From: Granulicella arctica
Lineage (GTDB): Bacteria > Acidobacteriota > Terriglobia > Terriglobales > Acidobacteriaceae
NCBI RefSeq assembly: GCF_025685605.1
Contig: NZ_JAGTUT010000001.1
Span: 930,001 to 994,000, forward strand
Length of the DNA: 64,000 bases
Reading direction: 5' to 3'
A program made the translations under genes and the position numbers. Under the pieces are notes generated by a model that ran no database searches, was not told where the DNA came from, and saw only the letters and a program-made list of their open reading frames with translations. This document shows, in pieces, positions 8,994 through 60,218 of the stretch (the first letter of the stretch is position 1; the number at the start of each line of letters is the position of its first letter).

Positions 8994-9044
8994 CTATGTC
9001 GTGAGATTTGTTACAAACGTGTAAATTCCTGCATCTACACATTC

Positions 9045-10244: not shown

Positions 10245-10263
10245 CGCGAACTGTCCGCTCAGT

Positions 10264-10677
10264 CTATCGAGCGGGCGGTCCCGCCGTCGCCGCAGGCTCC
10301 GTCTCGACCATCTGCTGGATCTCGACATTCTCATGCTTGATGTCCAGCCGCAGCCGGTTGAACAGGCTCATATAAAAATTGGCCACCCACACCAGCGCAA
10401 ACCAGCTGATGAGATACCCACGCCATCCGTCGTACAGCATCTGAAACCGCGTAATCACTAGAAAAAACGCAGTCACATAATGGCTAAAGCAATACTCACA
10501 GGTAAACAGGTAAAAGAACTTCCGCACCGGCAGCGGCTTGCACTTCTGGCTCTTATCCTTGCACCACTCCCGTGGCTCCCGAAAAACCTCTTCGTGCGTA
10601 ACGGTCCAAGAGGCACACGCAATTGGCAGCGCAAGCAAAAGCAGGTAGGCAAGCTGGCGCGGCAAAGTCATTAACAT
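10264..10677 (-). CDS. Small membrane protein with Cys pairs, unrecognised
   Basis: 137 residues from the ATG at 10677, preceded by TTGAGGA six bases away. Three hydrophobic stretches are visible: residues near 8-25 (QLAYLLLLALPIACASW), a central one after CEYC (FSHYVTAFFLVI) and a third (YLISWFALVWVANFYMSL). Between the first two is a Cys-containing loop (EWCKDKSQKCKPLPVRKFFYLFTCEYC). The CEYCFSHY pattern recalls DUF1360 membrane proteins (CxxCxxxW), a weak resemblance only. It converges on the DUF2252 gene. The function is unknown. Confidence 0.65.
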   Translation of the reverse strand: MLMTLPRQLAYLLLLALPIACASWTVTHEEVFREPREWCKDKSQKCKPLPVRKFFYLFTCEYCFSHYVTAFFLVITRFQMLYDGWRGYLISWFALVWVANFYMSLFNRLRLDIKHENVEIQQMVETEPAATAGPPAR

Positions 10678-10849
10678 AGAAATCCTCAAAAAACAGAACC
10701 CTGAACACCGATCAACGCGGATGGCACCGATCAAGTCCTTACTGCAAGAAAGTCGGTGTGATCCGCACTGTTTGGTGTTAAGCGGCTAAGCCCGTGCGCA
10801 TACAGGACCTTGAGGGATTGGATGCGTCCTGAAGGTTTAGGATGACTGC

Positions 10850-11731
10850 ATGGACTGGAAGAGCAAACGCGTACGCACCATCCTTGAAGCAGCGCTCGCC
10901 GAAGACAAGGCAGCCAACGATGTCACCACGGCCCTCACCGTCTCCCCCACCCTCCAGGCAACCGGCACCATCATCGCGAAACAGGCCTGCGTTATCTCCG
11001 GCCTCGGCTGCATCCCGGTCTTCCTCGATATCTTCGCCAAAATGAGCGGCACGCCCGGCCGCTTCGAGGTCGTCAGCCATCCCGAGATCTTCGACGGTGT
11101 CAAAGTCAAGAAGGGCCAGACCATCGCCGTCATCCGCTACAAGGCCGCAGCGCTGCTCTCCTGCGAGCGCGTCATCCTCAATCTCATCCAGCGCATGAGC
11201 GGCATCGCCACGCTCACCAACGAGTTTGTCAAAGAAGTCGCCCGCACCAAAACCAAAGTCCTTGACACCCGCAAGACCATCCCCGGCCTGCGCGCGCTCG
11301 ACAAGTACGCCGTCTGCTGCGGCGGCGGCGTCAATCATCGCCTCGACCTGCAGGACGGCATCCTCATTAAGAACAATCACATCTCGCTCGGCGGTGGCCT
11401 CCCCACCGCCTTGGAGAATGCCCTGAAGGGCCGCCGCAAAGGTCAGGTCGTCCAGGTAGAAGTCCGCAGCACCGAAGAGCTGCAACAGGCAATCGCCGGT
11501 GGTGCCGAGTCCATCCTCCTCGACAACATGACCCCCGCCGCCGTCAAAAAGGCCGTCAAGCTCATCCGCACCGCCCTGCCTGCAATCCCCATCGAGGCCT
11601 CCGGCAACATGAACCTCAAGACCGTCCGCGCCTACGCCCAGGCAGGAGTCGACTTCGTCTCCGTCGGCGCACTCACCCACTCCGCCATCGCCGCAGACAT
11701 CAGCATGAGGATCGCCGCGGATGCCTCCTAG
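10850..11731 (+). CDS. nadC: Nicotinate-nucleotide pyrophosphorylase (carboxylating)
   Basis: Makes nicotinate mononucleotide from quinolinate and PRPP in de novo NAD synthesis. It has 293 residues, the usual length. Conserved segments are LAEDKAANDVTT, ERVILNLIQRMSGIAT, the PRPP/quinolinate site LDTRKTIPGLRALDKYAV with GGGVNHRLDLQDGILIKNNH, and IPIEASGNMNL. AGGA lies seven bases before the ATG. It is the first gene of a tight cofactor series; its end overlaps the birA start by 11 bases, suggesting translational coupling. Confidence 0.97.
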   Translation: MDWKSKRVRTILEAALAEDKAANDVTTALTVSPTLQATGTIIAKQACVISGLGCIPVFLDIFAKMSGTPGRFEVVSHPEIFDGVKVKKGQTIAVIRYKAAALLSCERVILNLIQRMSGIATLTNEFVKEVARTKTKVLDTRKTIPGLRALDKYAVCCGGGVNHRLDLQDGILIKNNHISLGGGLPTALENALKGRRKGQVVQVEVRSTEELQQAIAGGAESILLDNMTPAAVKKAVKLIRTALPAIPIEASGNMNLKTVRAYAQAGVDFVSVGALTHSAIAADISMRIAADAS

Positions 11732-12530
11732 CTCCGCCGCAACCTTCGACGTCACCGCCGTAGAGTCTGCGATCGCCAACACTCAATTCGCAGGGCTCGT
11801 ACAGCACTTTCCCTCCGTCGGCTCGACCAGCACCCTCGCGCTCGAAGCCGCACAGTCCGGCACTAAAGGTGGCGTCTGGACCGCAGACGAACAGACTGCT
11901 GGCAGAGGTCGCGGTGGTCACGCCTGGCACTCCACCGCAGGTGACGGCCTCTACGTCAGCATCCTCGTCCAGCCCCGTATCGCGCTCGCGCAAGCCCTCA
12001 AACTCTCCCTCGCCACCGGTCTCGCCGCACAGTCCGCCATCGCTGAAACCACCGGCATGCAGCCTGACATCCGCTGGCCCAACGATCTCCTCCTCAACAC
12101 CCGCAAGTGCGGCGGCATCCTCGTCGAAACCGCCATCGCTCCGCAAGCCGCAGACGAGCCAGCCATGCTCCGCTACGCCGTCATCGGCATCGGCATCAAC
12201 GTCAATCACGCTGACTTTCCTCCCGACTTAGCCACGCTCGCCACCTCCCTCCGCCGCGAAACAGGAACACCCTGGCCCCGCGAACCTCTGCTCGCCGCCC
12301 TCCTCCGCGCCCTCGATCACGAGATTCACCTTCTCGCGGACGCGAATGATGACCTCCTCGAACGCTTCGCCAACGCCTCGAGTTGGGTCCGCGGCAAACG
12401 CGTCCGTGTAGGTGAAGCCGAAAGCTATACTGGCGTAACCTGTGGCCTCAACGCGGAAGGTTTTCTGATGATCGAAGGCGACGACGGCAAGCGCCACACG
12501 GTCCTCTCAGGCGGCGTCCGCCCTGCTTAG
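11721..12530 (+). CDS. birA: Biotin--[acetyl-CoA-carboxylase] ligase
   Basis: Attaches biotin to the carboxyl carrier protein. It has 269 residues and the catalytic domain only; there is no N-terminal helix-turn-helix, so it should not act as a repressor as E. coli BirA does. Visible motifs are STSTLALEAA, the biotinyl-AMP loop TAGRGRGGHAW, DIRWPNDLLL, KCGGILVE and IGIGINVNH, followed by a small C-terminal SH3-like part with an SGGVRP end. It starts inside the end of nadC and is followed by coaX after 14 bases. Confidence 0.95.
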   Translation: MPPSSAATFDVTAVESAIANTQFAGLVQHFPSVGSTSTLALEAAQSGTKGGVWTADEQTAGRGRGGHAWHSTAGDGLYVSILVQPRIALAQALKLSLATGLAAQSAIAETTGMQPDIRWPNDLLLNTRKCGGILVETAIAPQAADEPAMLRYAVIGIGINVNHADFPPDLATLATSLRRETGTPWPREPLLAALLRALDHEIHLLADANDDLLERFANASSWVRGKRVRVGEAESYTGVTCGLNAEGFLMIEGDDGKRHTVLSGGVRPA

Positions 12531-12544
12531 GCAAAGGAGTTTCG

Positions 12545-13342
12545 ATGCTGCTGGCGATTGATGTAGGCAACTCCAACACGGTCTTCGCGCTGTATAAACT
12601 CGCCCCCGGCACACCCGCCGAGGTCGTCGCCGATTGGCGCATGACCACCCCCTCCGGTCAGACCACCGACGAGTTCGGCAGCACCCTCCGCAACATCTTC
12701 GCCCAGCGCGGCCTCGACCTGAACGTCGTCGATGGCATCGCCGTCTCCTCCGTCGTGCCCCCGCTCGACTGGATGCTCCGCCAGGTCTGCGAGCTTTACT
12801 TCAAAGTAAAACCACTCTTCATCGAGCCCGGCGTCAAGACCGGCCTCCCCGTCCTCACCGACAACCCAGCCGAGGTCGGAGCCGACCGTATCGCCAACTG
12901 CGTCGCCGCCTTCGACAAGTTCGGCGGTCCCACCATCGTCGTCGACATGGGCACCGCCACCACCTTCGATGTCATCTCGAAAAAAGGCGAATTCCTCGGC
13001 GGCGCCATCGCCCCCGGCCTCGGCATCTCCGCCGAAGCCCTCTTCGCCAAAGCCGCCCGCCTGCCTCGCATCGAAGTAAAAAAGCCCGCCAAGATCATAG
13101 GCACCGGCACCGTCGACAACATCCAGATCGGCCTCTACTACGGCTACATCGGCCTCGTCGACGGCATCCTCGAACGCATGATCGTCGAGACCGGCCCCGA
13201 CACCAACACCGTCGCCACCGGCGGCCTCGCCCGCCTCATCGCTGGCGGCTCAAAATACCTCAAAACCGTAGACGACATGCTCACCCTCACCGGCCTCCGC
13301 ATCATCTACGAGCGTCATCAGGAACGCAGCCGCAAACGCTGA
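12545..13342 (+). CDS. coaX: Type III pantothenate kinase
   Basis: First step of coenzyme A synthesis. It has 265 residues with the ASKHA fold: phosphate loop AIDVGNSNTVFALY at the N-terminus, GADRIANCVAAF, VVDMGTATTFDVI, and GGAIAPGLGISAEALF. A strong AAAGGAG lies six bases before the ATG. The stop codon overlaps the start of the next gene (TGATG). It follows nadC and birA, grouping NAD, biotin and CoA synthesis in one transcript. Confidence 0.97.
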   Translation: MLLAIDVGNSNTVFALYKLAPGTPAEVVADWRMTTPSGQTTDEFGSTLRNIFAQRGLDLNVVDGIAVSSVVPPLDWMLRQVCELYFKVKPLFIEPGVKTGLPVLTDNPAEVGADRIANCVAAFDKFGGPTIVVDMGTATTFDVISKKGEFLGGAIAPGLGISAEALFAKAARLPRIEVKKPAKIIGTGTVDNIQIGLYYGYIGLVDGILERMIVETGPDTNTVATGGLARLIAGGSKYLKTVDDMLTLTGLRIIYERHQERSRKR

Positions 13343-14052
13343 TGCAAAATTACTTCAACTACTTCACCGAGATCGAGGAGCGCTTCCAGCAACGCCGCGG
13401 TTCCCTCCTCATGCTCTCCACCCTCGATTGGGCTCTCATCGAAACATGGCGTGAAGCAGGCATCCCGCTCGAAGCCGTCCTGCGCGGCATCGATGAATCC
13501 TTCGATAAGCACGACGCAAAGGCTCGCCGAGCGACCACCCGCACCCGCAAGGTCAATGGCCTGGCATGGTGCGCCCAGGCCGTCATGGAAGCCGTCGAGC
13601 AGGCCAAGGAAGCAGCCATCGGCGCAGCCAAACCGCAGGATGACCGCGAGAGTGGCTTCGAGTTCGAACGCGTAGCTCGCTACCTGCACCAGAACGCCAC
13701 CCGCATCGAAGCAGCCCAACTCCTGCCACCCGCAGACGCCATCGCCACCGAAACAGCCTCACGCCTGCGCGGCCTTGCCGAAGGCCTCCAGGCCGAACCC
13801 ATCACCTCTCTCGAAGAGCTGGACCGCACCCTCAGCGTCCTCGAAGAACGCCTCTTCGCCGCCCTGATGACCGCGGCACCCGAGGATGAACTCATGGCCC
13901 TCAAGGAGCAGGCCGCCCGTGAACTAGCTCCCTACAAGGGCAAGATGCAGGCGGTCCAAATCAAACAGGTCCAGCAGCAATTCCTGCAAAAGAAAATGCT
14001 CGAAACCCGCAGCCTTCCCCGCCTGAGCCTCTTCTACATGAGCCTCGACTGA
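13342..14052 (+). CDS. Unrecognised helical protein coupled to coaX
   Basis: 236 residues from an ATG overlapping the coaX stop by one base; the same frame is open far upstream but that part is only the shadow of coaX. The protein is largely alpha-helical and charged, with a long stretch likely to form a coiled coil (LEELDRTLSVLEERLFAAL and QAVQIKQVQQQFLQKKMLE). There is no signal peptide or membrane segment. The N-terminal motif DWALIETWREAGIPLEAVLRG is striking but I cannot name the family. The tight coupling suggests the gene is real and expressed with the cofactor genes. Confidence 0.75.
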   Translation: MQNYFNYFTEIEERFQQRRGSLLMLSTLDWALIETWREAGIPLEAVLRGIDESFDKHDAKARRATTRTRKVNGLAWCAQAVMEAVEQAKEAAIGAAKPQDDRESGFEFERVARYLHQNATRIEAAQLLPPADAIATETASRLRGLAEGLQAEPITSLEELDRTLSVLEERLFAALMTAAPEDELMALKEQAARELAPYKGKMQAVQIKQVQQQFLQKKMLETRSLPRLSLFYMSLD

Positions 14053-14122
14053 AGCACGGAAGCCCACCCACGCAGGGTGCCCGCACGGCAGCGCAAGCCG
14101 CAACGTAAACTAACAACACCTC

Positions 14123-15376
14123 ATGAACATCCAAATCGACACCATGATCTACGGCGGTGCCGGCACAGCACCCCTCCCCGACGGCACCACCATCGCCGTA
14201 CCCTTCACCCTCCCCGGCGAACATGTAACCATAAACGGTCACAATGAAGTCTCCGCCATCCTTGAAGCTTCACCCGACCGTGTCCCCGCACCCTGCCCCC
14301 ACTTCGGCCCCTGCGGCGGCTGCCAGTATCAACACGCGACCTACCCCGCCCAGACCCGGATCAAACAAACAATCCTCCACAAGACACTAGCCACCACCGG
14401 TCTCACCAACCTCCCCGAAACCGTCATCCACACTGCAGAGCCATGGGGCTACCGCAACCGCATCCGCCTGCGTGTAGCCATCGTCGACGGCACACTCCGC
14501 ATCGGCTACAACCGCCGCGGCACCTACGAGATGCTGCCCATCGTCGCCTGCCCCATCTCTGCGCCGCTCCTCCTCCGGGCCGCAGAAGCCGTACTAGCCG
14601 CCGCCGCAGCAACCCAGACATGGGACCGCAAACTCAATGAAATCGAACTCTTCACCAATAGCGACCAGTCATCGCTACAAATAACCTTCTTCCTGCGCAC
14701 CGAAAAAGCCATCGACCTCAAGGCCTTCTGCACCCAACTTAAATTCACCATCCCCGAGCTGGCCGGAGCAGGCATCACCATCGTCGGCGAGTCCGGCCGC
14801 AAGGACCAGCCCGGCGCAAACTGGGGCGCAGCCGGTCTCCAATATCGAGCCGCCGGTCGCGACTACTGGGTCACGCGCGGCAACTTTTTTCAGGTCAATC
14901 GCTTCCTCGTCGACGCCCTCATCGCGCTCGTCACCGCCGACCGCACCGGCACCCTCGCATGGGACCTCTACGCCGGCGTAGGCCTCTTCTCCCGCATCCT
15001 TACCGAAACCTTCACCACCGTCGTCGGCGTAGAAACTATCGTCGGCGATCTGGCCAACGTCCTCAAAGGCAGCACCCACCGCGCCGTAGGCTCCACGGTG
15101 CTCGACTTCCTCCGCATGGCCATCCTCCAGCGCGAGCGCCCCGACCTCATCGTCATGGACCCGCCCCGCGCCGGCATCGGCCTCGAAGCCTGCGAACTCC
15201 TCGGCCGCATTCAGGCCCCACAGATGGTCTACGTCTCCTGCGATCCCGTCACCCTCGCCCGCGATCTCAAGGCGATGGTAGACTCCGGCTACACGATCCA
15301 ACAGCTTCACCAGGTCGACCTGTTCCCCCAGACCTTCCACATGGAGACAGTCGTCCTACTCACCCGCTTACCGTAG
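14123..15376 (+). CDS. rlmD: 23S rRNA (uracil-5-)-methyltransferase, RlmD/RumA type
   Basis: 417 residues of the TrmA/RlmD family, which puts a methyl group on C5 of uridine in 23S rRNA. The N-terminal TRAM domain (residues 1-50) is followed by the iron-sulfur Cys motif CPHFGPCGGCQYQH (Cys58, 64 and 67, with a fourth Cys near 142). The SAM-binding motif is DLYAGVGLFS; the catalytic region has DPPRAG, YVSCDPVTLARDL with the nucleophilic Cys, and DLFPQTFHMETV. Bacterial paralogues RlmCD and RlmD cannot be separated from sequence alone, so the symbol is tentative. TAAACT lies 11 bases before the ATG; no Shine-Dalgarno is seen. Confidence 0.88.
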   Translation: MNIQIDTMIYGGAGTAPLPDGTTIAVPFTLPGEHVTINGHNEVSAILEASPDRVPAPCPHFGPCGGCQYQHATYPAQTRIKQTILHKTLATTGLTNLPETVIHTAEPWGYRNRIRLRVAIVDGTLRIGYNRRGTYEMLPIVACPISAPLLLRAAEAVLAAAAATQTWDRKLNEIELFTNSDQSSLQITFFLRTEKAIDLKAFCTQLKFTIPELAGAGITIVGESGRKDQPGANWGAAGLQYRAAGRDYWVTRGNFFQVNRFLVDALIALVTADRTGTLAWDLYAGVGLFSRILTETFTTVVGVETIVGDLANVLKGSTHRAVGSTVLDFLRMAILQRERPDLIVMDPPRAGIGLEACELLGRIQAPQMVYVSCDPVTLARDLKAMVDSGYTIQQLHQVDLFPQTFHMETVVLLTRLP

Positions 15377-15396
15377 AGCAGCACCGGCGGGGAACG

Positions 15397-18144
15397 ATGC
15401 CACCAGCACGCCCCGCCCTCACCAGCGGCAGCATTCAACGCGACCTTTGGCCCCAGGCAGCCGTAGAGCCCCTGCGCGTCCGCCGCGCTCCTCTGCTCGC
15501 CGCCGCCGTCTGCTTCGCCATCGGCACCGTCATGGCGCGCCACTGGCAGCCCCCCATCGTCCTTCTACTCGCCCTCGCCCTGCTAGCCGCCCTTGCATGG
15601 CTTGGCTTCCGCCAAAGCGCCCGAGCCTCGATCGCCGCCGTCGCCGCCATCTGGGTCGTCACCGGCCTCTGGTGCGCCGAGATTCAACCCGTCCCCTCTG
15701 CTCAACAAACACTCCTCACCTACGCAGACGGCCTCAGCCGAACCGTACGCGGCCACATCATCCGCATCCAGGAGCTCCCACCCAACGCCCCCACGAACGA
15801 CGCCGACACCGAAGCAAGAGACTGGTCAGAGGACGCCGCTGAGACCCAACCAGCAACCCTCTCCATCGACCTCGCCCTAGACTCCATCGAACAAGTTACT
15901 CCCGACCTCGCATGGATGGTCCCCTTGGCCGATGGCGAAGGCGGCATCCGCATCACCGTCCTTGGCACAGCAAACACCTTCACCTGCGGCGACCTCCTCG
16001 AAGCTCCCGTACGCCTCAAGGTACCCGAACGCTACCGAGATCCCGGCGCATGGCAGTACGCCGACTACCTCCTCGACCAGGGGATCGGCGCCCACGCCAA
16101 CATCAAGGCAGCCGCCATCACCCGCCTGCCAAAGCCCCTGGCAAATTGGAACCCCCGCTGCCGCCTCTACGCCGCACAGGCGTGGGCCGCCAACCGCCTC
16201 ACCCGCTACATCCACTCCCGCGCCAACAACACCCTCCCAGCCCTCGCCCGCCTCAGCCCCGACGACGCCGGCATGCTCAACGCCATGCTCTTCGGCGACC
16301 GCACCCGCCTCAGCCACACCCTCCGCCTCGGCTTCGAGCGCACCGGCTCCTTCCACCTCTTCGTCGTCTCCGGCATGCACGTCGCCCTCCTCGCCGGAGG
16401 CATCTTCTGGTTCTCCCGCAGACTGCGCCTCGGCGATCTCAGCGCCACCCTCCTCACCATCGCCCTCACCACCGCATACGCCCTCATCACCGGCTTCGGC
16501 GCACCCATCCAGCGCGCCCTCGCCATGGCGACCATCTTCCTCATCACACGCCTCCTCTCACGCGACCGCAGCGTCCTCAACGCCCTCGGCGCAGCCGCCC
16601 TTGTAGTCCTCGTATGGTCCCCGCGCAGCCTCTTCGAAGCCAGCTTCCAGATGACCTTCCTCGCCATCGTTGCTATTGCGGGCATCGCCATCCCCCTCGG
16701 CGAGTGGAGCTTCCTCCCCCACGCACGCGCCACCCGCAACATCAGCGACCGCTGGCTCGATGTAGGCCTCCCACCGCGCCTCGCCCAACTCCGCGTCATG
16801 CTCCGGCTCTTCGGCGAACCCCTCACGCCCATCCATCGCCGCGCCGCCACACTCCCCGCCAGGCTTCTCCGCTCACTCCTCTGGGCTCTCGAACTCTTCC
16901 TCATCGGCATCGTCGCCGAGATGGTCATGGTCCTGCCCATGGCCATCTACTTCCATCGGGCCACCGTCTTCGCCCTCCCCACCAACATGCTCAGCATCCC
17001 GCTCGTCGCCGTCCTCGCGCCCGCCGCCATTCTCACCTTCCTCGCCTCACTCCTAAACCCCTGGCTCGCCGCTCTCCCCGGAGCCGCAACCGCGCTCCTC
17101 CTCCACGGCATTATCGCCATCATCGGTCACATCACCCACGTAGCCAGCGCTGACCTCCGTATCCCCGGTCCCGCGCTTTGGATCGCCCTCTGCGTCGTCG
17201 CCTGCTGGGTCTTCTGCTGCTGGGCTGTTCGCCACTCCCTCCGCGGTGCCGTCATCGCCACCATCGTCCTTCCCCTGGCCGCGGTGGCCGTCCTCTGGCC
17301 GGAGCCATCCCTCACCACTCCCGGCCAGCTCGAGGTCACTGCCATCGACATAGGCCAGGGAGACTCCCTCCTCCTCGTCGCACCCACCGGCCAGACCATG
17401 CTCATGGACGCAGGCGGACCCACCGGCGCCCTCAGAGAAACCTCCGAAGCCACCAGCCGCTTCGACGTAGGCGAGCAGGTCGTCGCCCCCTATCTCTGGT
17501 CCCGCCGCATCCGCCGCCTCGACATCCTCGCCCTCAGCCACGCCCACAGCGACCACATGGGCGGCATGCCCGCCATCCTCCGCAGCTTCCACCCCCGCGA
17601 GCTCTGGGTTTCGATCGACCCCAGCTCAGCCGCCTACGCCGACCTCCTCCGCGAAGCCGCCACCCTCGGCATCGCCGTCCGTCATCTCCACGCCGGTCAA
17701 ACCCTCCCCTGGGCTGGAACCCAGGTCGAAGTCCTCGCGCCCGCCGCGACCTACACCAACCCCCGCGCCCCCACCAACGACGACTCTCTAGTCCTCCGCC
17801 TGCAATACGGTCAGTCCTCCGTCCTCTTAGCAGGAGACGCCGAAGCCGCCAGCGAGCGCGCCATGCTCACCGCCAGCCTCCTCCATCCCGTCACCCTGTT
17901 GAAGGTAGGCCACCACGGCAGCCGCACCTCCACCGGCCTGCCTTTCCTCACCGCCCTCGCCCCCCACGACGCCATCATCTCCGTCGGCCGCAACAACACC
18001 TTCGGCCACCCAAGAGCCGAGGTCATCACCCGCCTCGCCGAAGCCCACACCCGCCTCTACCGCACCGACGAGTTCGGCCTGACCACCTTCCTCCTCACCC
18101 CGGACGGCCAGATCCAGGAGATCACCGGCGCAGCCGACAACTAG
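15397..18144 (+). CDS. comEC: ComEC/Rec2 DNA internalisation protein
   Basis: Inner-membrane channel for DNA uptake. It has 915 residues from the ATG at 15397 (GGCGGGGA upstream); the frame is open further upstream only as a shadow of the methyltransferase gene. The order is N-terminal membrane segments, an OB-like DUF4131 part, the competence domain of many hydrophobic helices with FHLFVVSGMHVALLAGG and GAPIQRALAMA, then a C-terminal metallo-beta-lactamase domain with DIGQGDSLLL, LSHAHSDHMGGM (about residue 713), LLAGDAE and KVGHHGSRTST. All zinc-ligand motifs are present, so the protein looks intact. Confidence 0.95.
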   Translation: MPPARPALTSGSIQRDLWPQAAVEPLRVRRAPLLAAAVCFAIGTVMARHWQPPIVLLLALALLAALAWLGFRQSARASIAAVAAIWVVTGLWCAEIQPVPSAQQTLLTYADGLSRTVRGHIIRIQELPPNAPTNDADTEARDWSEDAAETQPATLSIDLALDSIEQVTPDLAWMVPLADGEGGIRITVLGTANTFTCGDLLEAPVRLKVPERYRDPGAWQYADYLLDQGIGAHANIKAAAITRLPKPLANWNPRCRLYAAQAWAANRLTRYIHSRANNTLPALARLSPDDAGMLNAMLFGDRTRLSHTLRLGFERTGSFHLFVVSGMHVALLAGGIFWFSRRLRLGDLSATLLTIALTTAYALITGFGAPIQRALAMATIFLITRLLSRDRSVLNALGAAALVVLVWSPRSLFEASFQMTFLAIVAIAGIAIPLGEWSFLPHARATRNISDRWLDVGLPPRLAQLRVMLRLFGEPLTPIHRRAATLPARLLRSLLWALELFLIGIVAEMVMVLPMAIYFHRATVFALPTNMLSIPLVAVLAPAAILTFLASLLNPWLAALPGAATALLLHGIIAIIGHITHVASADLRIPGPALWIALCVVACWVFCCWAVRHSLRGAVIATIVLPLAAVAVLWPEPSLTTPGQLEVTAIDIGQGDSLLLVAPTGQTMLMDAGGPTGALRETSEATSRFDVGEQVVAPYLWSRRIRRLDILALSHAHSDHMGGMPAILRSFHPRELWVSIDPSSAAYADLLREAATLGIAVRHLHAGQTLPWAGTQVEVLAPAATYTNPRAPTNDDSLVLRLQYGQSSVLLAGDAEAASERAMLTASLLHPVTLLKVGHHGSRTSTGLPFLTALAPHDAIISVGRNNTFGHPRAEVITRLAEAHTRLYRTDEFGLTTFLLTPDGQIQEITGAADN

Positions 18145-50698: not shown

Positions 50699-51325
50699 AT
50701 GGCTAATGCAACCCAGACGCATCCGCTTCAAACCGGAATCGGCAATTTCATTGCCGGCCTCAAAGAGTTGGAACGCGACCTCATCACAAAGGACAAGATT
50801 GCCGCATACATGGCCGCAATGCCTGTCCGTGCCGAGGCCTTGCAGGATTATGTCTGGTGGCGCGACAGCTTCTACACCCGCAATCTCATCTATCGCGACG
50901 ACCTCTTCGAGGTTATGACCATCTGCTGGTCGCCCGGACAGAAGACCGCAATTCATACGCATAATGGCCAACTCGGCTGGATGACCGTTGCTCAGGGCGA
51001 AGTAACAACCCACGAATTCAGCCACGCAAGCTGCAATGCGCCGGAGAACCAGAACGTCGTCAACATCGACTGTCTAGGCGGCGCAACCGAGCTCCAGATC
51101 GATCGCCTCGGCTCGATTGTCTGTGCTGAAGGCACCGGAATGGTCACCGTGGACAAGCTGCAGACCATTCACCAGATCGAGAATACCGGCAACACAGGCT
51201 GCATCAGCCTCCACGTCTACTCCAAACCCTTCGACTCCTGCATCGCCTTTGACCTCGATCAACAGCGCTGCTATCGCCGCCAACTCAGCTACTTCAGCAA
51301 GGATGGAACGCCGATCCAAGCCTGA
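50699..51325 (+). CDS. Cysteine dioxygenase, type I
   Basis: 208 residues of the cupin fold. Oxidises cysteine to cysteine sulfinate with a non-heme iron. Iron ligands: His86 and His88 (HTHNGQLGWM) and a third His near 158 (TIHQIE). The position of the mammalian Cys of the Cys-Tyr cross-link is Gly here, as in many bacteria. Frames upstream add an N-terminus with no match, so ATG 50699 is the start, without a Shine-Dalgarno. It leads a series with a peptide-ligase cluster, a pairing I cannot explain from known pathways. Confidence 0.88.
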   Translation: MANATQTHPLQTGIGNFIAGLKELERDLITKDKIAAYMAAMPVRAEALQDYVWWRDSFYTRNLIYRDDLFEVMTICWSPGQKTAIHTHNGQLGWMTVAQGEVTTHEFSHASCNAPENQNVVNIDCLGGATELQIDRLGSIVCAEGTGMVTVDKLQTIHQIENTGNTGCISLHVYSKPFDSCIAFDLDQQRCYRRQLSYFSKDGTPIQA

Positions 51326-51363
51326 TTACCGACCTTGCTCCTGAAGAAGTTGACCGATTGCGT

Positions 51364-51392
51364 TTGGAACCGCCGGACTGTCCCGCTATACT
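51364..51392 (+). promoter_or_regulatory. Promoter candidate before the ATP-grasp gene
   Basis: TTGGAA and TATACT separated by 17 bases, the best -35/-10 pair I found in the window. Transcription would start about six bases before the ATG at 51405, so the mRNA would be nearly leaderless. Confidence 0.6.
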
Positions 51393-51404
51393 CAAAACTT
51401 CTCC

Positions 51405-52871
51405 ATGCAAACAGCCCAGGCAAAACAGCTCGATCTCGCATCCCTGAAGAACTATCTGCTGGACCACGCCTACGACGAGATGTTCTCCGGACCGGGCGAA
51501 CTTCACGAGCATTATGGCCCGCTGCTCGAACACTTCACGTCGCTTCCCGGCGACGAACTACAGCGGCGCAAACAGGCAGCCGATCTAAGCTTCCTCAATC
51601 AGGGCATTACCTTCACGGTCTATGGCCGCAACGAAGGCACTGAGCAGATCTTTCCCTACGACATGCTCCCGCGCATCATCACGGCTGCCGAATGGGAAAA
51701 GGTCGAGCGTGGCCTCACACAGCGCATAACCGCCCTCAATCTCTTCCTCAAGGACATCTACAACGAGGGTCGAATCCTTGCTGATGGCATCGTGCCGCGC
51801 GAGATCGTCTATAGCTGCAAGCAGTTCCGGCGTCAGATGCTCGGCCTGCAGGTTCCGCGCAACGTCTACATCGCCGTCTGCGGAACCGACCTCATCCGCC
51901 TTGAGAATGGCGAGTTTGTCGTCCTGGAAGACAATCTGCGGGTACCGAGCGGTGTCAGCTACATGCTGACCAATCGCCGCGTTATGAAGCGGATCTTCCC
52001 GCAACTCTTCCGCAGCTACAAGGTTCGCCCGATCGAGCAGTATACCCAGCTTCTCCTCGGGACGCTGCGCTCGCTCGCTCCCGAAGGCCGCCCAGAACCA
52101 AACATTGTCCTGCTCTCGCCAGGCGTCTTCAACTCCGCTTATTACGAGCACGCCTATCTCGCACGTCAGATGGGCATCGAACTGGTCGAGGGCCGCGACC
52201 TCGTCACCCACGACAACATCGTCTACATGCGCACGACCAGCGGTCTGCGTCGCGTCGACGTCATCTATCGCCGCGTCGACGACGACTTCATCGACCCGCT
52301 CTCGTTCCGAGGCGACTCCATTCTCGGTGCAGCAGGGTTATTCAACGCCTATCGCGCCGGAAATGTCACCCTCGCAAACGCCTTCGGAACCGGCGTCGCG
52401 GACGACAAAGCGCTCTACGCCTACGTTCCCGACATCATCCGCTACTACCTCACCGAGGAGCCAATCCTCCAGAACGTTGAGACCTTCCTGCTCACACGGC
52501 CAAAGGAACGTGCACACGTTCTCGCCAATCTCGACAAACTGGTCGTCAAAGCCGTCGGCGAAAGCGGCGGCTACGGCATGCTCATCGGTCCGCAATCGAC
52601 CAAGGCGGAGCGCGCAGAGTTTGCCCTCAAGATTGAGGCCGATCCGCGAAACTACATCGCCCAACCAACCATCTCCTTCTCCCGAGCACCATGCCTCATC
52701 GGCGACGAACTCCAACCACGCCACGTCGACCTTCGCCCCTACGTCCTCTACGGCGATAAGGTCACCATCGTGCCCGGCGGATTGACGCGTGTAGCCCTCA
52801 AGCAAGGCTCCCTCGTCGTCAACTCATCTCAAGGCGGCGGCAGCAAAGACACCTGGGTTCTCAGCGAGTAG
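51405..52871 (+). CDS. Circularly permuted type 2 ATP-grasp protein
   Basis: 488 residues, typical for this family (DUF404/DUF407 combined). Key parts: an N-terminal domain with [61 protein letters not shown], then [35 protein letters not shown] and [19 protein letters not shown], the nucleotide-binding region. Family members occur with alpha-E and transglutaminase-like genes and are predicted peptide or amide-bond ligases; the substrate is unknown. The next gene starts 13 bases downstream. Cytoplasmic, no signal peptide. Confidence 0.93.
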
Positions 52872-52884
52872 AAAGAAGATACCG

Positions 52885-53859
52885 ATGCTAAGCCGTGTTG
52901 CCGATAGTCTTTACTGGATGAGCCGCTCCTTAGAGCGTGCGGAGCATGCGACGCGTCTGCTTGAGGTCAATCTGAACCTCATGCTCGATGAGAGCGCCAC
53001 GAACGCCGAACGGCGTTGGCAGCGCGTCCTCACAGCCCTGGGGAAACCCAAGGATGTCGAATGGGCCGGTGATCCGTACGCGCTTACCCGTACGCTCACC
53101 TTTGACACGGAGATCAAGAGCTCCATCATCTCCTGCATCATCAGTGCGCGCGAGAACGCACGTCACGTCCGTGAGCAGATTTCAACTGAGCAGTGGCATC
53201 GCCTCAATCGACTCTTCCTTCGCGTTACACGCCCCGAGGTACGGATTGAAGCATTCACGGCTGGCAATGAATTGCAGGCTGAATTCCTCCAGCAGGTCAT
53301 GGAAGCCGTCCACCAGTTTCAGGGCGTCACCGACTCCACCATGAGCCATGGCGAAGGCTGGCAGTTCATCCAGATAGGCCGCTACATTGAACGTGCTTCG
53401 GCGACTGCCTTGCTTCTTGAGGCCTATCACGAAGATCTTTGGAGCCAGCCGGACAAAGTGCCTGAAGCCAACGAATACCTCGGCTGGATGGGCCTTCTCC
53501 GCTCCGCAACAGCATTTGAAGCCTACTGTAAGGTCTATACTGCTGACCTTACCCCTGAGCAGATTCTCGAGTTCCTGCTGCTTGATCCGGAGTTTCCGCA
53601 TTCCCTTCGCTTCTCGATCGACAGCCTTCAGCAAGCGCTCGAAGCGATCCACGGCGAAGCGGACAAGAGTCGCGCGGAACCGCTGCGTCGCTTAGGCGGT
53701 CGTCTACAAGCCTCTCTCAGCTACTCAAGCGTCGACGAAATCCTCAACGGCGACGTTGTGGCCTACCTGCGCAACATCCAGTCGCAATGCAGCGAGATCC
53801 ACAATATGATCTACGAACTCTACGTTGACTACTCCATCCAAGCAGCGTTGGCGGGCTAG
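52885..53859 (+). CDS. Alpha-E domain protein (DUF403)
   Basis: 324 residues, almost entirely helical. Hallmarks: LSRVADSLYWMSRSLERAEHATR at the start (shown here in part), EQWHRLNRLFLRV, the FIQIGRYIERASATALLLE repeat of the opening motif, and LLDPEFPHSLRFSIDSLQQAL. Alpha-E proteins always accompany the ATP-grasp type above and are thought to serve as a partner or substrate-holding helical bundle. The function is not established. A purine-rich AAAGAAG precedes the ATG. The next gene starts three bases after this stop. Confidence 0.93.
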   Translation: MLSRVADSLYWMSRSLERAEHATRLLEVNLNLMLDESATNAERRWQRVLTALGKPKDVEWAGDPYALTRTLTFDTEIKSSIISCIISARENARHVREQISTEQWHRLNRLFLRVTRPEVRIEAFTAGNELQAEFLQQVMEAVHQFQGVTDSTMSHGEGWQFIQIGRYIERASATALLLEAYHEDLWSQPDKVPEANEYLGWMGLLRSATAFEAYCKVYTADLTPEQILEFLLLDPEFPHSLRFSIDSLQQALEAIHGEADKSRAEPLRRLGGRLQASLSYSSVDEILNGDVVAYLRNIQSQCSEIHNMIYELYVDYSIQAALAG

Positions 53860-53862
53860 ATA

Positions 53863-54888
53863 ATGGAACGTGTCCTGACACCGCCACTAGAGCCGATCAC
53901 CGCTCCAGTGCGTTCGACCATCGTCGACATTGTCAAAGGTCTCGCGATCACGCTGGTCGTGTTCGGCCACACAGCCCAGGGTATGTACCACCGCAGGTGG
54001 TGGACAGGGCGCTCCATGCATCTCTTTGATCTTTTTATCTACAGCTTCCATATGCCCATATTTTTCTTCGTGGCTGGCCTTTTTCTTACGGGTAGTCTTC
54101 AACGTCGTGGACCGGCAAACTTCATTCTCGATAGATCCAAGACCATCCTGTACCCCTACGTTCTCTGGGTGGTTGTGAGCGCTTCGATCGAGCCTCTCAT
54201 CTCGCACTTCAAAATCGGATATCACCCCTTTGAGTGGAAGGCTTTCCTCGTCAATCTCGTCGATGGAGAGTTGAGCTGGTTCCTACCCGTTCTCTTCTGT
54301 TGCCAGCTCCTCGCACTTTGCACATTCAGGACCCCAAAATGGATCCGGCTTGGCATCGCATTAGCAGCAGCGCTTGTCGTCAGAAAATATGGCCTATCCG
54401 TCTTCTACAAGACGGTTCATGAGTTCTGCTACCTTGCTGCGGGCATGGCCATTGGTCGCATGATCTTGAAATTAGAACTTCTTCCTGCCTGGGCGGCTGC
54501 CGCAGGTGCTCTCCTGATCTTTGCCGTGCAGATGGATGTCATCCTCCATAGCGGAAGTGGCACTTATTTGGGCGGTCTGCATCACCGGCTTGCAGTCATA
54601 CTTGGATTTACCGGCACCGCAGGCCTGCTGCTGCTCGCAAGATCTCTCGACGGGACTCGCTTTGCCGACATGTGGATCTGGCTCGGCAAAGCATCGCTCG
54701 GCATCTTTCTCTTGAGTTCCTTCGCCCAGGGCGCGACCCGTGAGTTGATTCTGCGGATCGCGCATACGCACGAGCTTTGGCTCCAGCTATGCTTACCAAG
54801 CATCGTCGCCCTGATACTGTCGGCGATCGTATGGCATCAGCAGGAACGCTGGCGAATCGGTTGGCTCTTTCATTGGCCATCTATCTAA
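53863..54888 (+). CDS. Membrane acyltransferase, OafA/YrhL-like group
   Basis: 341 residues with about ten hydrophobic helices (IVKGLAITLVVFGH, FHMPIFFFVAGLFLTG, YVLWVVVSASIEPL, LGFTGTAGLLLLARSL, LPSIVALILSAIVW). The opening VFGHTAQ with its His and the YSFHMPIFFFVAG segment are the acyltransferase-3 signature. The donor is usually acetyl-CoA or a lipid-linked acyl group and the acceptor a glycan or small molecule. It lies inside the ATP-grasp/alpha-E/transglutaminase series, where it is not a usual member, and its codon use is more AT-rich than its neighbours, suggesting later insertion. Confidence 0.85.
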   Translation: MERVLTPPLEPITAPVRSTIVDIVKGLAITLVVFGHTAQGMYHRRWWTGRSMHLFDLFIYSFHMPIFFFVAGLFLTGSLQRRGPANFILDRSKTILYPYVLWVVVSASIEPLISHFKIGYHPFEWKAFLVNLVDGELSWFLPVLFCCQLLALCTFRTPKWIRLGIALAAALVVRKYGLSVFYKTVHEFCYLAAGMAIGRMILKLELLPAWAAAAGALLIFAVQMDVILHSGSGTYLGGLHHRLAVILGFTGTAGLLLLARSLDGTRFADMWIWLGKASLGIFLLSSFAQGATRELILRIAHTHELWLQLCLPSIVALILSAIVWHQQERWRIGWLFHWPSI

Positions 54889-54932
54889 CAGACCGAACCT
54901 AGGCTGCAACGCAGAGTGGGAGAATAAAGACG

Positions 54933-55922
54933 ATGTACTACTCAATCCGGCATCTTACCAAGTTCCTCTATAGCAACCCGGTAAGCGAGAGCATGATGGA
55001 GACGCGCATGCACCCGCGTAGCGACCAAAATCAACGCTGCCTGACCTTCCATCTATCCGTCAGCCCGCGTTGTCGTGTCTTCAGCTATCGCGACCATCTC
55101 GCCAACCAGGTCCATCACTTCGACATTCCCAATCAGCATGGCCAACTCGTCATCGTGGCTGAGTCGCTCGTCGACATGCAGCCATCGAATGAGATCCCGT
55201 CCTTCCTTGCACCCGATGCCTGGGCTGAACTCGACGCCATGGTTGAGCAGGGGGACTATTGGGAGATGCTCTTTCCCAGCGAGTTCGCCAGGCCCACCCA
55301 GGCTCTAGACGATTTGGCGAAACATCTGGACGTCCGACGCCGCGACGATCCTTTGATGGTGCTCCACCAGCTCAACGAGCAGATTTATAACTACTTCGAT
55401 TACAAGCCCAAGTCAACGAAGGTTGACTCTCCCATCGACGTCGCACTCACCAGTCGGAAGGGTGTCTGCCAGGACTTCGCCCACATCATGATCACGCTGG
55501 TGCGGTCCAAGCTGCATATTCCCTGCCGCTACGTCAGTGGTTATCTCTACCATGGCGACCGCCATCAGGATCGCTCTGTGAACTCCGCAACCCACGCATG
55601 GATTGAGGCGCTCATCCCGCAGCTCGGCTGGGTCGGCTTCGATCCGACGAACCTGCTCGTTGCAGGCGACCGCCATATTCGCACCGCCATCGGCCGCGAC
55701 TATGACGATGTTCCACCAACCCACGGCATGTTTCGCGGCCGAGCCAGCAGCGATCTCACTGTTGCCGTCCGCGTCACGCCAAGCGAAGGAACGCCCTCGC
55801 TCGACAAGGAACTTCCCGTCCCGGAGGATTGGTCCACACTGGTTGAAAAGGCCACGCAAATCCCTGAGCCACCACCGCCGCCGACCCGTCTGCAACAGCA
55901 AGTAGCTCAACAGCAGCAATAG
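54933..55922 (+). CDS. Transglutaminase-like protein (DUF-type, with N-terminal domain)
   Basis: 329 residues. The N-terminal beta domain (1-90, YYSIRHLTKFLYSNPVSES) is the usual partner of these bacterial proteins. The catalytic domain has Cys179 (GVCQDFAH), His221 (SATHAWIEA) and Asp237 (GFDPTN), the Cys-His-Asp triad of papain-like transglutaminases. The C-terminus is Pro- and Gln-rich (EPPPPPTRLQQQVAQQQQ). In this cluster type it may process or cross-link the peptide made by the ligase. GGGAGA lies nine bases before the ATG. Confidence 0.92.
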   Translation: MYYSIRHLTKFLYSNPVSESMMETRMHPRSDQNQRCLTFHLSVSPRCRVFSYRDHLANQVHHFDIPNQHGQLVIVAESLVDMQPSNEIPSFLAPDAWAELDAMVEQGDYWEMLFPSEFARPTQALDDLAKHLDVRRRDDPLMVLHQLNEQIYNYFDYKPKSTKVDSPIDVALTSRKGVCQDFAHIMITLVRSKLHIPCRYVSGYLYHGDRHQDRSVNSATHAWIEALIPQLGWVGFDPTNLLVAGDRHIRTAIGRDYDDVPPTHGMFRGRASSDLTVAVRVTPSEGTPSLDKELPVPEDWSTLVEKATQIPEPPPPPTRLQQQVAQQQQ

Positions 55923-55939: not shown

Positions 55940-56725
55940 TCAGAGGTTGAGCTTTTTGAAGATGCTTTCGGGGATGTTCCGAATAATGAACATGATCGGT
56001 TGCCATTGGAATGGCACATAAAGCGAGTCGCGCCGCTTGTCGATAGCTGCGACAATCGTCTGCGCAACCTTGTCCACATCGGCAAACTTCTCCGAACCCT
56101 TCATTCCTGCAGTCATCGCCGTCTTTACAGGGCCCGGCTTGATCGTCAGCACGGTCACACCCTCGCGGTCTACGCGATTGCGCAGGCCGCCCAGAAACGC
56201 CGATAGCCCCGCCTTCGACGAGCCATATAGATAGTTCGACTTGCGACCACGATCGCCCGCAACCGAGGAGATAACTGCCAGTACCCCGGCGTGACGCTGC
56301 ACACAGTAGTTCGCCAGCCAGGTCAGCAGAGAGACAGGAGCGATGAAGTTGGTGTGGAGAATCTGCGCAGCATGCCCAAAATCCTGCTCTGCCTGGGGCT
56401 GCTCTCCGAGAACTCCGTGTGCCAGGTATGCTACATCCATTCCGGTCAGCGAATTAATCGCATGTGCCAGCAGCGTGGGATGCTGTGTCGTGTCGTCTAG
56501 ATCGGCAACCGCTGTGTCGACATAGCTGGCGCCGCGGGTCTTCAGGTCTGCGGCTACAGCCGCAAGCTTGTCCCCATTGCGAGCTACAAGGAACAGGCGT
56601 GCTCCCTGCTTCGCCCAGATACGGCAGGTCGCCTCGGCAATTCCCGAGGTCGCGCCAAGTACGAGGATCTTTTGTGGGCCGGTTGAAGTCTGTAGCGCGG
56701 TCGTGCTGGCGGGCGAAGTGCTCAT
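55940..56725 (-). CDS. SDR oxidoreductase, DprE2-like
   Basis: 261 residues from the ATG at 56725, which overlaps the oxidase stop by four bases; a longer frame adds an unrelated N-terminus. Visible motifs: ILVLGATSGIAEATCR (cofactor loop), AHGVLG, and VISSVAGDRGRKSNYLYGSSKAG with the catalytic Ser, Tyr and Lys. The C-terminus has a membrane-associated look (PIMFIIRNIPESIFKKLNL). The arrangement with a FAD oxidase gene matches mycobacterial DprE1-DprE2, which epimerise decaprenylphosphoryl ribose to arabinose; that this pair does the same here is inference. Confidence 0.8.
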   Translation of the reverse strand: MSTSPASTTALQTSTGPQKILVLGATSGIAEATCRIWAKQGARLFLVARNGDKLAAVAADLKTRGASYVDTAVADLDDTTQHPTLLAHAINSLTGMDVAYLAHGVLGEQPQAEQDFGHAAQILHTNFIAPVSLLTWLANYCVQRHAGVLAVISSVAGDRGRKSNYLYGSSKAGLSAFLGGLRNRVDREGVTVLTIKPGPVKTAMTAGMKGSEKFADVDKVAQTIVAAIDKRRDSLYVPFQWQPIMFIIRNIPESIFKKLNL

Positions 56726-58083
56726 AATGTCGGTCGATCTCCGGTGACGCGCTCCCAGAAGCTGGAGGTAAGCAGGGGGTCGCGGTAGCGGGCAAACTGC
56801 TCCCACTGAGGATAAAACGCCTGAAACTGCGCGGCAGTCATTGCCGCATCCTTGGCTGGGTACAGTTTGCCACCAAAGTCACGCGTCATGTCCGCAAGGC
56901 GCTCAAACAGCGGAAAGCTCTTATCCGCCTTGATTGGGAAGTCCAAGGCAAGCGTGATGCCGGGTTGCGGAAAGCTCATCATGCCGGGCGAGGGCACGTC
57001 GCCGAATGCTTTCAAGACCGCCAAAAATGACGCAAGCCCAGACTTCGCGACCTCCTTTAGTATCGCGATCGTGCCCTCGCGTGCGCTCTCCCACGGAATC
57101 GCGTACTGGAATTGCAGTAACCCGTTCCGGCCATAAAGCCGATTCCAATGCAGAACCTTGTCGAGTGGATAGAAGAACGGTTCGTAGTCCTGCAGAGCGG
57201 TCACGCGCGGCTTCACCTGCTTGTGAAAGAAGGCCGTATTGAACATGCTCACTGTCGTATGATTTAGCGCAAATCCGGGAGCATCGAACGGGAACACCAG
57301 CTTTGGCTCAGGCGATTGCTTTAGTTCGGCAGGCACCTTGGAGTGATCACCCTGCATAAAGACGCCACGTGCAAAGTTCTTACCCGTCGAGGCACAGTCG
57401 ATCCAACTAACCGTGTACTCAATCTTCTCGCTCTGTTTCGTCAGGTCCAGAAACTCGTCGATTCCGTGGAATTGAATTCCCTCGTAGTCAATCATGCGCG
57501 AGACGATCGGCTTCATCCGCAGCTTTGCCCATGTGATCACACCGGTCAGGCCAAGTCCGCCGATGGTTGCCGCGTAATAATCAAGGTTTTCGGTCGGCGA
57601 GCAGATCTTGCGCGTCCCATCAGACCGCACCAGTTCAAACTCAGTCACGTGCGAGCCGAAAGCCCCAGCAACATGATGGTTCTTTCCGTGAATGTCATTA
57701 GCGATCGCTCCGCCCAGCGTGACGTACTTGGTCCCGGGCGAGACAGGAAGAAAAAAACCACGCGGTACAGAGAAGTCCAATATCTGCGCAAGCGTAGCAC
57801 CAGCCTCCGCAGTCAGAACTCCTGTTTCAGAATCGAAGTTGAGCAACCGATTCATTCCGGTTGTCAGCAGAAGGTTGCCATCTTTCAACAGGCAGACGTC
57901 GCCATAGCTGCGGCCCATGCCAACGGGTAGAGCACCGTCGTGCACACCGGCAATTACGCCTGGAAAGTCATTTTGCCAGTTGATTGGAATGATTTTTGCA
58001 GAATAAGTGGGGTAACGTCCCCAGGACTCAAAGGAAGCCGACGCAGTCGGGGTTGATCCTGGGTCAGAGCTCAGTTCAGACAT
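56722..58083 (-). CDS. FAD-linked oxidase, DprE1-like
   Basis: 453 residues of the VAO/PCMH FAD-binding fold: GMGRSYGDVCLL, LTAEAGATLAQIL, FLPVSPGTKYVTLGGAIANDIHGKNHH, GGLGLTGVI. The C-terminal substrate domain keeps the catalytic Lys (YPAKDAAMT, about residue 411) of DprE1. The Cys that benzothiazinones modify in the mycobacterial enzyme (Cys387) is Ala here (ITLALDFPIK, about residue 379), from memory of that sequence. The likely substrate is a polyprenyl-phosphate pentose. Followed on this strand by the coupled SDR. Confidence 0.82.
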   Translation of the reverse strand: MSELSSDPGSTPTASASFESWGRYPTYSAKIIPINWQNDFPGVIAGVHDGALPVGMGRSYGDVCLLKDGNLLLTTGMNRLLNFDSETGVLTAEAGATLAQILDFSVPRGFFLPVSPGTKYVTLGGAIANDIHGKNHHVAGAFGSHVTEFELVRSDGTRKICSPTENLDYYAATIGGLGLTGVITWAKLRMKPIVSRMIDYEGIQFHGIDEFLDLTKQSEKIEYTVSWIDCASTGKNFARGVFMQGDHSKVPAELKQSPEPKLVFPFDAPGFALNHTTVSMFNTAFFHKQVKPRVTALQDYEPFFYPLDKVLHWNRLYGRNGLLQFQYAIPWESAREGTIAILKEVAKSGLASFLAVLKAFGDVPSPGMMSFPQPGITLALDFPIKADKSFPLFERLADMTRDFGGKLYPAKDAAMTAAQFQAFYPQWEQFARYRDPLLTSSFWERVTGDRPTL

Positions 58084-59009: not shown

Positions 59010-60218
59010 TTATGCCGTTATTCCGGCAGATCTCTCGACGGAAGCTTCTTTTCCAGACCGCGGCTTGTAATCAAAGTACCGTTTCAGGCGGAGAAAGGGC
59101 TTCTCATAGAGGTGAAAGCAAAGATAAGCTGCGCTCACCGCCAATGTCAGCCACAGGAAACCAGCTCCGATGACAGCCAGCAATTTGCTATGCGTCACCT
59201 GGAGCAGGACTGCTCGCAGCCTGATAACCATCGGCCCAAGCACAATCATGTGCAGCACATAGATGCCATAGCTGTACTTGCCAAAGAACCGGAGCCACTT
59301 CTGCTCGAAGAGCCATTTACAAGCTGATTCCGGACGCAACGACCAAGCCAGCAGGCAAGCAGAACATACGGCCAGCACGGTGTACCGAGGCCCATTGATC
59401 CAGAAGCTCATCGCATGAGAGAAGACAGCCCCGGGCGTAAATTCTCCTCCAAAGCGGAAGATTGATACAACCAGGATCGCCATCGTGACCAGAAAACCTA
59501 AGGGAGCCATCCTCATTACGCGGTCCCAGTAACGCGATCGATACAGCAACGCAAAGGTTCCGCCGAGCAGCAGCGAATCGGCACGCGCCAAGGTATTCAC
59601 ATGAATCGCGTCCTGCGAGAAACCCATATGGAAGAGCGCCAATCGCAGGAGCAACGCGACTGTAGCCCCGCCAAGCGTCGTCCATAGCAACGTACGGCGG
59701 TCACGAATCAGGAAGACCAGCGCAGGCCAAACCAGGTAGAACTGCTCCTCAATTGCCAAGGACCAGAAGTGATTTAGACTAACCCCCGCACCAGGGCTGA
59801 AGGTCATGATGAGTTGCGGGCGAAAATTCTGCAGGTAGCCCAGCAGCAACCATCCCATGCCATGCCACTGGAGTCGTAGGAGCGGCGTTAACACGAAGAG
59901 CGCAAGCAGTACTCCGTAATAGAGAGGAAAGATGCGTAGAACCCGCCGCGCATAGAACTTGGAGAAATAACCCTCATCGCTCACAGAGTCGACCAGAATG
60001 CCGGTAATCAAAAATCCGGACAGGACGAAGAAAAGATCGACGCCAAAAAGCCCGTAACCGAGCAAGTTCCCGAGGAACCGAACCGCAACTCCCCCACTTT
60101 CAAAGTTCGCCGTGAACGCGTGCGAGCAAATCACCATCAGGATCGCCACACCGCGCACTCCGTCGAGAGGCTTTAGATGTCCTTGCCCAACGTGACGCGT
60201 GGCGATTACTTCGGTCAT
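59010..60218 (-). CDS. Membrane acyltransferase 3 (OafA/YrhL family)
   Basis: 402 residues with about ten transmembrane helices. The family opening is LKPLDGVRGVAILMVICSHA (His in the HxxF-like site), then LFFVLSGFLITGIL, FYARRVLRIFPLYYGVL and HFWSLAIEEQFYLVWPAL, which together are diagnostic. No C-terminal SGNH domain. Acetylates or acylates an envelope glycan or small molecule; the acceptor is unknown. The gene is separate in origin from the one at 53863. Its end precedes rpmI on the same strand, but whether they share a transcript is not clear. Confidence 0.9.
   Translation of the reverse strand: MTEVIATRHVGQGHLKPLDGVRGVAILMVICSHAFTANFESGGVAVRFLGNLLGYGLFGVDLFFVLSGFLITGILVDSVSDEGYFSKFYARRVLRIFPLYYGVLLALFVLTPLLRLQWHGMGWLLLGYLQNFRPQLIMTFSPGAGVSLNHFWSLAIEEQFYLVWPALVFLIRDRRTLLWTTLGGATVALLLRLALFHMGFSQDAIHVNTLARADSLLLGGTFALLYRSRYWDRVMRMAPLGFLVTMAILVVSIFRFGGEFTPGAVFSHAMSFWINGPRYTVLAVCSACLLAWSLRPESACKWLFEQKWLRFFGKYSYGIYVLHMIVLGPMVIRLRAVLLQVTHSKLLAVIGAGFLWLTLAVSAAYLCFHLYEKPFLRLKRYFDYKPRSGKEASVERSAGITA

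Follow-up and report, generated by a model that had tools for sequence, protein, structure and literature searches.

In a stretch of 64,000 nucleotides of the Granulicella arctica genome (contig NZ_JAGTUT010000001.1, positions 930,001 to 994,000; the window), a cysteine dioxygenase gene is followed on the same strand by genes for a circularly permuted ATP-grasp ligase, an alpha-E protein, a membrane acyltransferase and a transglutaminase-like protein. We are rather confident that the dioxygenase is an independent neighbour, and that the acyltransferase is an old, dispensable fourth gene of an operon whose other members, the ATP-grasp, alpha-E and transglutaminase genes (the trio), are predicted to ligate an amide with ATP and then to trim or cross-link it. 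A sequence-only reading of the window had joined all five genes in one pathway on a peptide containing sulfur amino acids, to which the dioxygenase would supply cysteine sulfinate. The locus contains the following features, given as window coordinates, strand, description and support.

50699..51325, +, cysteine dioxygenase (thiol dioxygenase with active-site arginine); Pfam CDO_I PF05995, 7.3e-17
51364..51392, +, predicted promoter element of the trio: TTGGAA, 17 bases, TATACT, 12 bases to ATG; no ribosome-binding site
51405..52871, +, circularly permuted ATP-grasp ligase; Pfam CP_ATPgrasp_2 PF14403, 1.4e-169
52885..53859, +, alpha-E helical protein with an arginine-rich invariant core; Pfam Alpha-E PF04168, 5.6e-90
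53863..54888, +, membrane acyltransferase, AT3 family; Pfam Acyl_transf_3 PF01757, 2.2e-26
54933..55922, +, transglutaminase-like cysteine enzyme; Pfam Bact_transglu_N PF08379, 9.2e-22, and Transglut_core PF01841, 3.3e-19
55940..56725, -, SDR gene bordering the operon; open reading frame and Pfam

The gene order and family names of the sequence-only reading hold: by the positions of the open reading frames, the five genes lie on the plus strand in the order described, and each family is confirmed by Pfam. The gaps along the five genes are 79, 13, 3 and 44 bases, so that the last four resemble one operon and the dioxygenase stands slightly apart.

We searched 60 genomes of the window's genus for each of the five genes. 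Weaker paralogue matches to the ATP-grasp, alpha-E and transglutaminase genes were left out of the counts, and G080 (a 72-residue piece of the ATP-grasp protein), G006 (transglutaminase on another contig), G082 (split genes) and G034 (split transglutaminase) were scored as trio-positive. The trio is complete in 45 of the 60 genomes and absent from 14, and the remaining one, in which the contig begins inside alpha-E, has two of its genes. In nearly all genomes of the genus the trio is thus present or absent as one block (all-or-none in 59 of 60), as a set that is gained or lost as a unit should be.

The order is equally stable in 80 ATP-grasp loci, a collection that overlaps with the genus genomes (L044, for example, is G075) and is not an independent sample. 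Alpha-E lies downstream of the ATP-grasp gene in 76 of these loci, and the transglutaminase as well in 73. Among the exceptions, the sequences of L003 and L067 stop before the partners could show, the transglutaminase of L044 lies further on, and L017 shows none. Outside the genus, the ATP-grasp gene is directly upstream in all 13 alpha-E loci read, and the transglutaminase is next in 12. The claim that the trio had been recognised before as a conserved set agrees with the 73 loci that keep the order and with earlier descriptions (PMC5666114, PMC6376114, PMC3597751; these and the papers below are cited for excerpts).

Some loci carry irregular forms of the trio. A nucleoside hydrolase gene lies between the ATP-grasp and alpha-E genes in L036 and L041 (PF01156) and in L030, L043 and L049 (by a shared sequence start). 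At G082:C1:4422507-4425970 the ATP-grasp gene and the transglutaminase match in pieces, as does the transglutaminase at G034:C52:11635-12598, as if decaying or misassembled.

The acyltransferase is likely to be an old, dispensable fourth gene of the trio operon that was lost or moved several times, because, of the 14 genus genomes that carry it, 10 have it in the same slot between the alpha-E and transglutaminase genes, as does another genus, and because its divergence keeps pace with that of the trio. In the count of 14 of 60 genomes, four of 18 (G020, G023, G035 and G076), which have weak matches only, were scored as without the gene. In three of the 14 the acyltransferase is found at a shared second place (L113, L114 and L115) beside a regulator gene; this encodes a response regulator, and Pfam, applied to L114 only, assigns it to the sigma-54 type. 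Among the 80 ATP-grasp loci the acyltransferase is present in 10, always in the slot, and in none of the 24 more distant ones (L059-L082). A survey of 150 genomes of the family, with matches of 1e-20 or better, found it in three besides the window's own genome; one of them (L134, another genus) has the same slot, and the other two are without the trio in the 16 kb read.

For 12 slot loci, Mantel comparison of the acyltransferase distances with those of the trio gives r values of 0.85 for alpha-E, 0.86 for the transglutaminase and 0.91 for the ATP-grasp gene, the value for alpha-E against the transglutaminase being 0.88. The acyltransferase family tree broadly agrees with an old fourth gene, with the L134 sequence as a long branch. 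A flanking-gene tree of 37 rows requires at least 5 changes to explain the distribution of the trio, 7 for that of the dioxygenase and 4 for that of the acyltransferase; L118, which stands closest to the window in this tree, has the trio and lacks the acyltransferase. The linkage of the acyltransferase to the trio, one half of what the sequence-only reading had proposed, is thereby borne out, and the gene becomes a new lead as a co-inherited membrane enzyme. Since some species have it and near relatives do not, products could be compared between natural pairs.

The cysteine dioxygenase, on the other hand, is likely to be an independent neighbour that does other work than the operon. It was found in 20 of the 60 genus genomes, six of 26 (G005, G013, G024, G031, G065 and G078), with weak or short matches only, being scored as without it. 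The trio is present in 12 of the 20 and absent from 8; 34 genomes have the trio alone and 6 have neither. Fisher's test gives odds of 0.26 (p 0.051) for the 60 genomes, and p 0.08 for the 45 good genomes, with counts of 9, 7, 24 and 5 in the same order. There is thus no positive association and, if anything, a negative one.

The usual order in relatives is TypA (divergent), the dioxygenase if present, the trio, the SDR gene, an FAD enzyme and rplT. In the window, TypA is more distant and on the trio's strand, and three other genes separate it from the dioxygenase. When the trio is missing, the dioxygenase adjoins the SDR gene in six of the eight genomes, at about 15 to 1,000 bases and with no trio between; in the remaining two, the SDR gene is about 100 kb away (G064) or on another contig (G010). 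TypA is on the other side of the dioxygenase in seven of these eight loci, L105 being the exception. In L134, which belongs to another genus of the family, TypA adjoins the ATP-grasp gene and no dioxygenase occurs in the stretch read; for this reason the trio was probably at this site first and was later lost as a block. At G003:C2:928480-929042 the dioxygenase matches in pieces, as if decaying or misassembled.

Over the phylum, 125 of 396 genomes have a match to the CDO family, and 111 of the 125 are outside the genus. Alpha-E was searched in 80 of these 111 and matched in 15 (weakly in G440). It is near the dioxygenase in none of the 15, lying on another contig in 12 and on the same contig at 0.6-1.9 Mb in 3, although several assemblies are fragmented and single cases could be missed. 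Likewise, neither the dioxygenase nor this acyltransferase was seen in the 13 of these 15 alpha-E loci that were read. The sequence-only reading had suggested that the five-gene order be followed across Acidobacteriota. Its expectation stands for the acyltransferase, which is linked in 10 of 14 genus genomes and one other genus, and, outside the genus, fails for the dioxygenase, which is linked to alpha-E in 0 of 15 genomes.

In the dioxygenase itself, residues H86, H88, H158, R61 and Y174 are invariant in the 17 loci compared, and from an alignment to CDO type 1 chains we take them to be the iron ligands, the active-site arginine and the tyrosine of this family; the protein would accordingly have the three-histidine iron site with arginine and tyrosine. 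Position 93 is a glycine, where wild-type mammalian enzymes presumably have a cysteine.

The start signals of the two parts differ as well. For this comparison the genus set was L003-L058 and L105-L119 plus the window, taken by place in a similarity list and not by taxonomy; L017, L022 and L057 within it are labelled as other groups. The start codon was taken as the ATG nearest to the projected start. Of 59 distinct stretches upstream of the ATP-grasp gene, 57 have the hexamer TATACT at 8-17 bases from the ATG, compared with 0.47 expected from shuffles; by locus, it is present in 9 of 9 that have the dioxygenase and in 48 of 51 that lack it. Eight other gene families were compared, and none has it in the corresponding stretch. 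Four-base words resembling a Shine-Dalgarno (SD) sequence occur at 2 of 57 ATP-grasp starts (3.6 expected), and at 40 of 55 alpha-E, 42 of 51 transglutaminase and 14 of 17 dioxygenase starts. A published criterion for leaderless genes is a TA-like box (TANNNT) about 12 bases before the start codon and no SD (PMC3160421). Judged by its upstream bases, the ATP-grasp start fits this description, and the trio transcript is probably leaderless; such a conserved start indicates which genes are likely to be co-expressed. Upstream of the dioxygenase, GATAAT is found within 40 bases in 9 of 17 loci. The window is not among the nine; its dioxygenase has TAAAAT 8 bases before the ATG and no clear SD. Because their signals differ, the trio and the dioxygenase appear to have separate starts.

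The predicted chemistry of the operon comes from its enzyme families. The transglutaminase-like protein resembles 3isr. Its triad of C179, H221 and D237 is that of a Cys-His-Asp enzyme, and in an alignment of 89 sequences each of the three is retained by at least 98% of the rows read. Across 67 alpha-E sequences 19 columns do not vary, and arginine fills six of these, so that an acidic substrate would suit the protein. Its model is all-helical (predicted local distance difference test score, 89); no sequence match was found among solved chains and no significant Foldseek match among solved structures. Judged by gene arrangement, alpha-E is probably part of the ligase, since it adjoins the ATP-grasp gene in 76 of the 80 loci and is fused to it in a second module of the same genome. 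This module (L103, G000:C1:3738000-3757000, at 8971-16875) encodes a fusion of circularly permuted ATP-grasp and alpha-E of about 845 residues, a transglutaminase, a protein of about 1077 residues with transglutaminase and DUF2126 amidoligase parts and, on the opposite strand, a third transglutaminase. A Cys/Met pyridoxal phosphate (PLP) enzyme adjoins it.

In the mechanism that we propose, the ATP-grasp enzyme would convert a carboxylate into an acyl phosphate and couple this to an amine, and alpha-E, its usual helical partner, would perhaps hold the acidic substrate in its arginine-rich core. The transglutaminase-like enzyme would then hydrolyse or transfer the amide, thereby trimming or cross-linking. 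In lineages that keep the acyltransferase, it may acylate the product or its envelope target. Phosphate release from ATP is reported for the ATP-grasp protein encoded in the Anbu operon of Yersinia bercovieri (PMC6376114). As for the purpose, our best guess is that the cycle of ligation and hydrolysis may serve nitrogen turnover, because a related cluster that encodes DUF404/407, DUF403 and transglutaminase proteins, I35_5080-5083 of Burkholderia cenocepacia H111, is under NtrC control when nitrogen is limiting (PMC5491218), and because in marine metagenomes the trio domains were found to be associated with domains of urea metabolism (PMC3597751).

Several observations weigh against this reading of an independent dioxygenase and an old fourth gene. 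In 12 of 12 genomes with both, the dioxygenase lies upstream of the trio on the same strand, at a distance of 58 to 2,012 bases. A terminator-like site between the dioxygenase and ATP-grasp genes was looked for and none was found in the window, so that read-through transcription is possible. Of 46 trio genomes, 36 lack the acyltransferase in the slot; the gene lies elsewhere in one genome without the trio (G029), and is not significantly associated with the trio over the 60 genomes (Fisher p 0.15; p 0.02 for the 45 good genomes); its starts carry few SD-like words (4 of 16, 2.7 expected). The trio is itself not invariable, since L040, L054 and L057 are without alpha-E and transglutaminase within about 8 kb downstream of the ATP-grasp gene. 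Lastly, the nitrogen control is known from a proteobacterium, B. cenocepacia (PMC5491218).

The constant adjacency of dioxygenase and trio, 79 bases apart in the window and joined by an acyltransferase in the slot in three of the 12 genomes (G000, G002 and G071), would suit a single pathway of all five genes. We nevertheless hold that pathway to be very improbable: 8 of 20 dioxygenase genomes are without the trio and 34 of 46 trio genomes without the dioxygenase, the trio-less sites place the dioxygenase beside the SDR gene, the start signals are separate, linkage outside the genus is absent, and no paper joining cysteine dioxygenase, ATP-grasp and transglutaminase was found in the literature searched. 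The dioxygenase comes and goes separately from the trio, and this distribution lends nothing to the sulfur-amino-acid idea. The sequence-only reading had named two findings that would speak against it. The first, adjacency in no other genome, is not what we see, as the dioxygenase adjoins the trio in 11 further genomes of the genus; the second, a dioxygenase conserved or transcribed apart from the trio, largely is, on the genomic side. Taking the dioxygenase out of the picture averts a false lead into sulfur chemistry.

A second alternative treats the acyltransferase as a passenger only, a gene that came to lie in the operon without contributing to it. The empty slots, the four genomes that hold the gene elsewhere (three at the shared place, one trio-less) and its fast divergence, with distances about 2.6 times those of alpha-E in the 12 slot loci, fit such a passenger. 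Even so, we regard it as unlikely, if worth keeping in mind, since the exact slot recurs within the genus and in another genus, the distances follow those of the trio, only 3 bases separate the gene from alpha-E in the window, and all 11 carriers among the 45 good genomes also have the trio. An old fourth gene, lost in some lineages and moved in others, thus remains our preferred explanation.

Beyond the operon, the SDR gene and a gene for an FAD-binding oxidoreductase (window 55940-58083) overlap by 4 bases and often adjoin in relatives; the pair presumably resembles DprE1/DprE2-type epimerases. A second AT3 acyltransferase at window 59010-60218, between rplT and gyrB, recurs between these two genes in L110 and L118, at about 61-63% identity, and follows rplT in L005.

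Among known proteins and systems, the ATP-grasp protein matches the solved chain 3n6x (576 bits, residues 22-487). The title of that entry, "putative glutathionylspermidine synthase", is the depositors' name only, and nothing here indicates spermidine. The window acyltransferase shares the PF01757 membrane type with NolL-type O-acetyltransferases; identity with the NolL fucose acetyltransferase was rejected, as the score is 36.6 bits against an NCBIfam equivalog cut-off of 425. Two papers, PMC3597751 and PMC2964297, contain the terms alpha-E, ATP-grasp and acyltransferase together; in the former the acyltransferase is an unrelated lipid A enzyme. The NtrC-dependent cluster I35_5080-5083 of B. 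cenocepacia H111 has the same DUF404/DUF407, DUF403 and transglutaminase-like proteins; it differs in its sigma-54/NtrC control and in a large transglutaminase protein, which is found in L103 and not in the window's trio (PMC5491218).

The closest system is the Anbu operon. The original proposal for the trio is reportedly that of Iyer et al. in 2009. Later papers describe an Anbu operon with its genes in the order of the trio and propose a peptide synthesis or tagging system (PMC5666114, PMC6376114, PMC3597751), with role proposals not experimentally confirmed as of the excerpt of PMC6376114. No Anbu was found in the operon or in the window's own genome, where the sole PF00227 match reads as HslV. 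The trio could in principle be an Anbu-type system for protein tagging or degradation in which HslV has replaced the proteasome-like subunit, given the common gene order (PMC5666114, PMC6376114) and the HslV-like and HslU-like genes of the genome. We think this improbable, as the HslV-like gene is some 1.2 Mb distant from the trio and adjoins the HslU-like gene. One PF00227 match each was found in 57 of the 60 genus genomes, trio or not, with only the window's own classified; a match is present in all 14 trio-less genomes and so does not follow the trio. A bolder possibility, which we would call a long shot, is that in the Edaphobacter/Granulicella lineage the trio has lost Anbu and acts together with a membrane acyltransferase of its own, all encoded on a single leaderless mRNA, to produce an acylated peptide for the envelope; if true, this would be a lipopeptide-like or envelope-modifying pathway not described before. 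The window's operon and the Anbu operon have the three families and their order in common; what sets the window's operon apart is a putative leaderless-type, sigma-70-like start and an optional acyltransferase between alpha-E and the transglutaminase.

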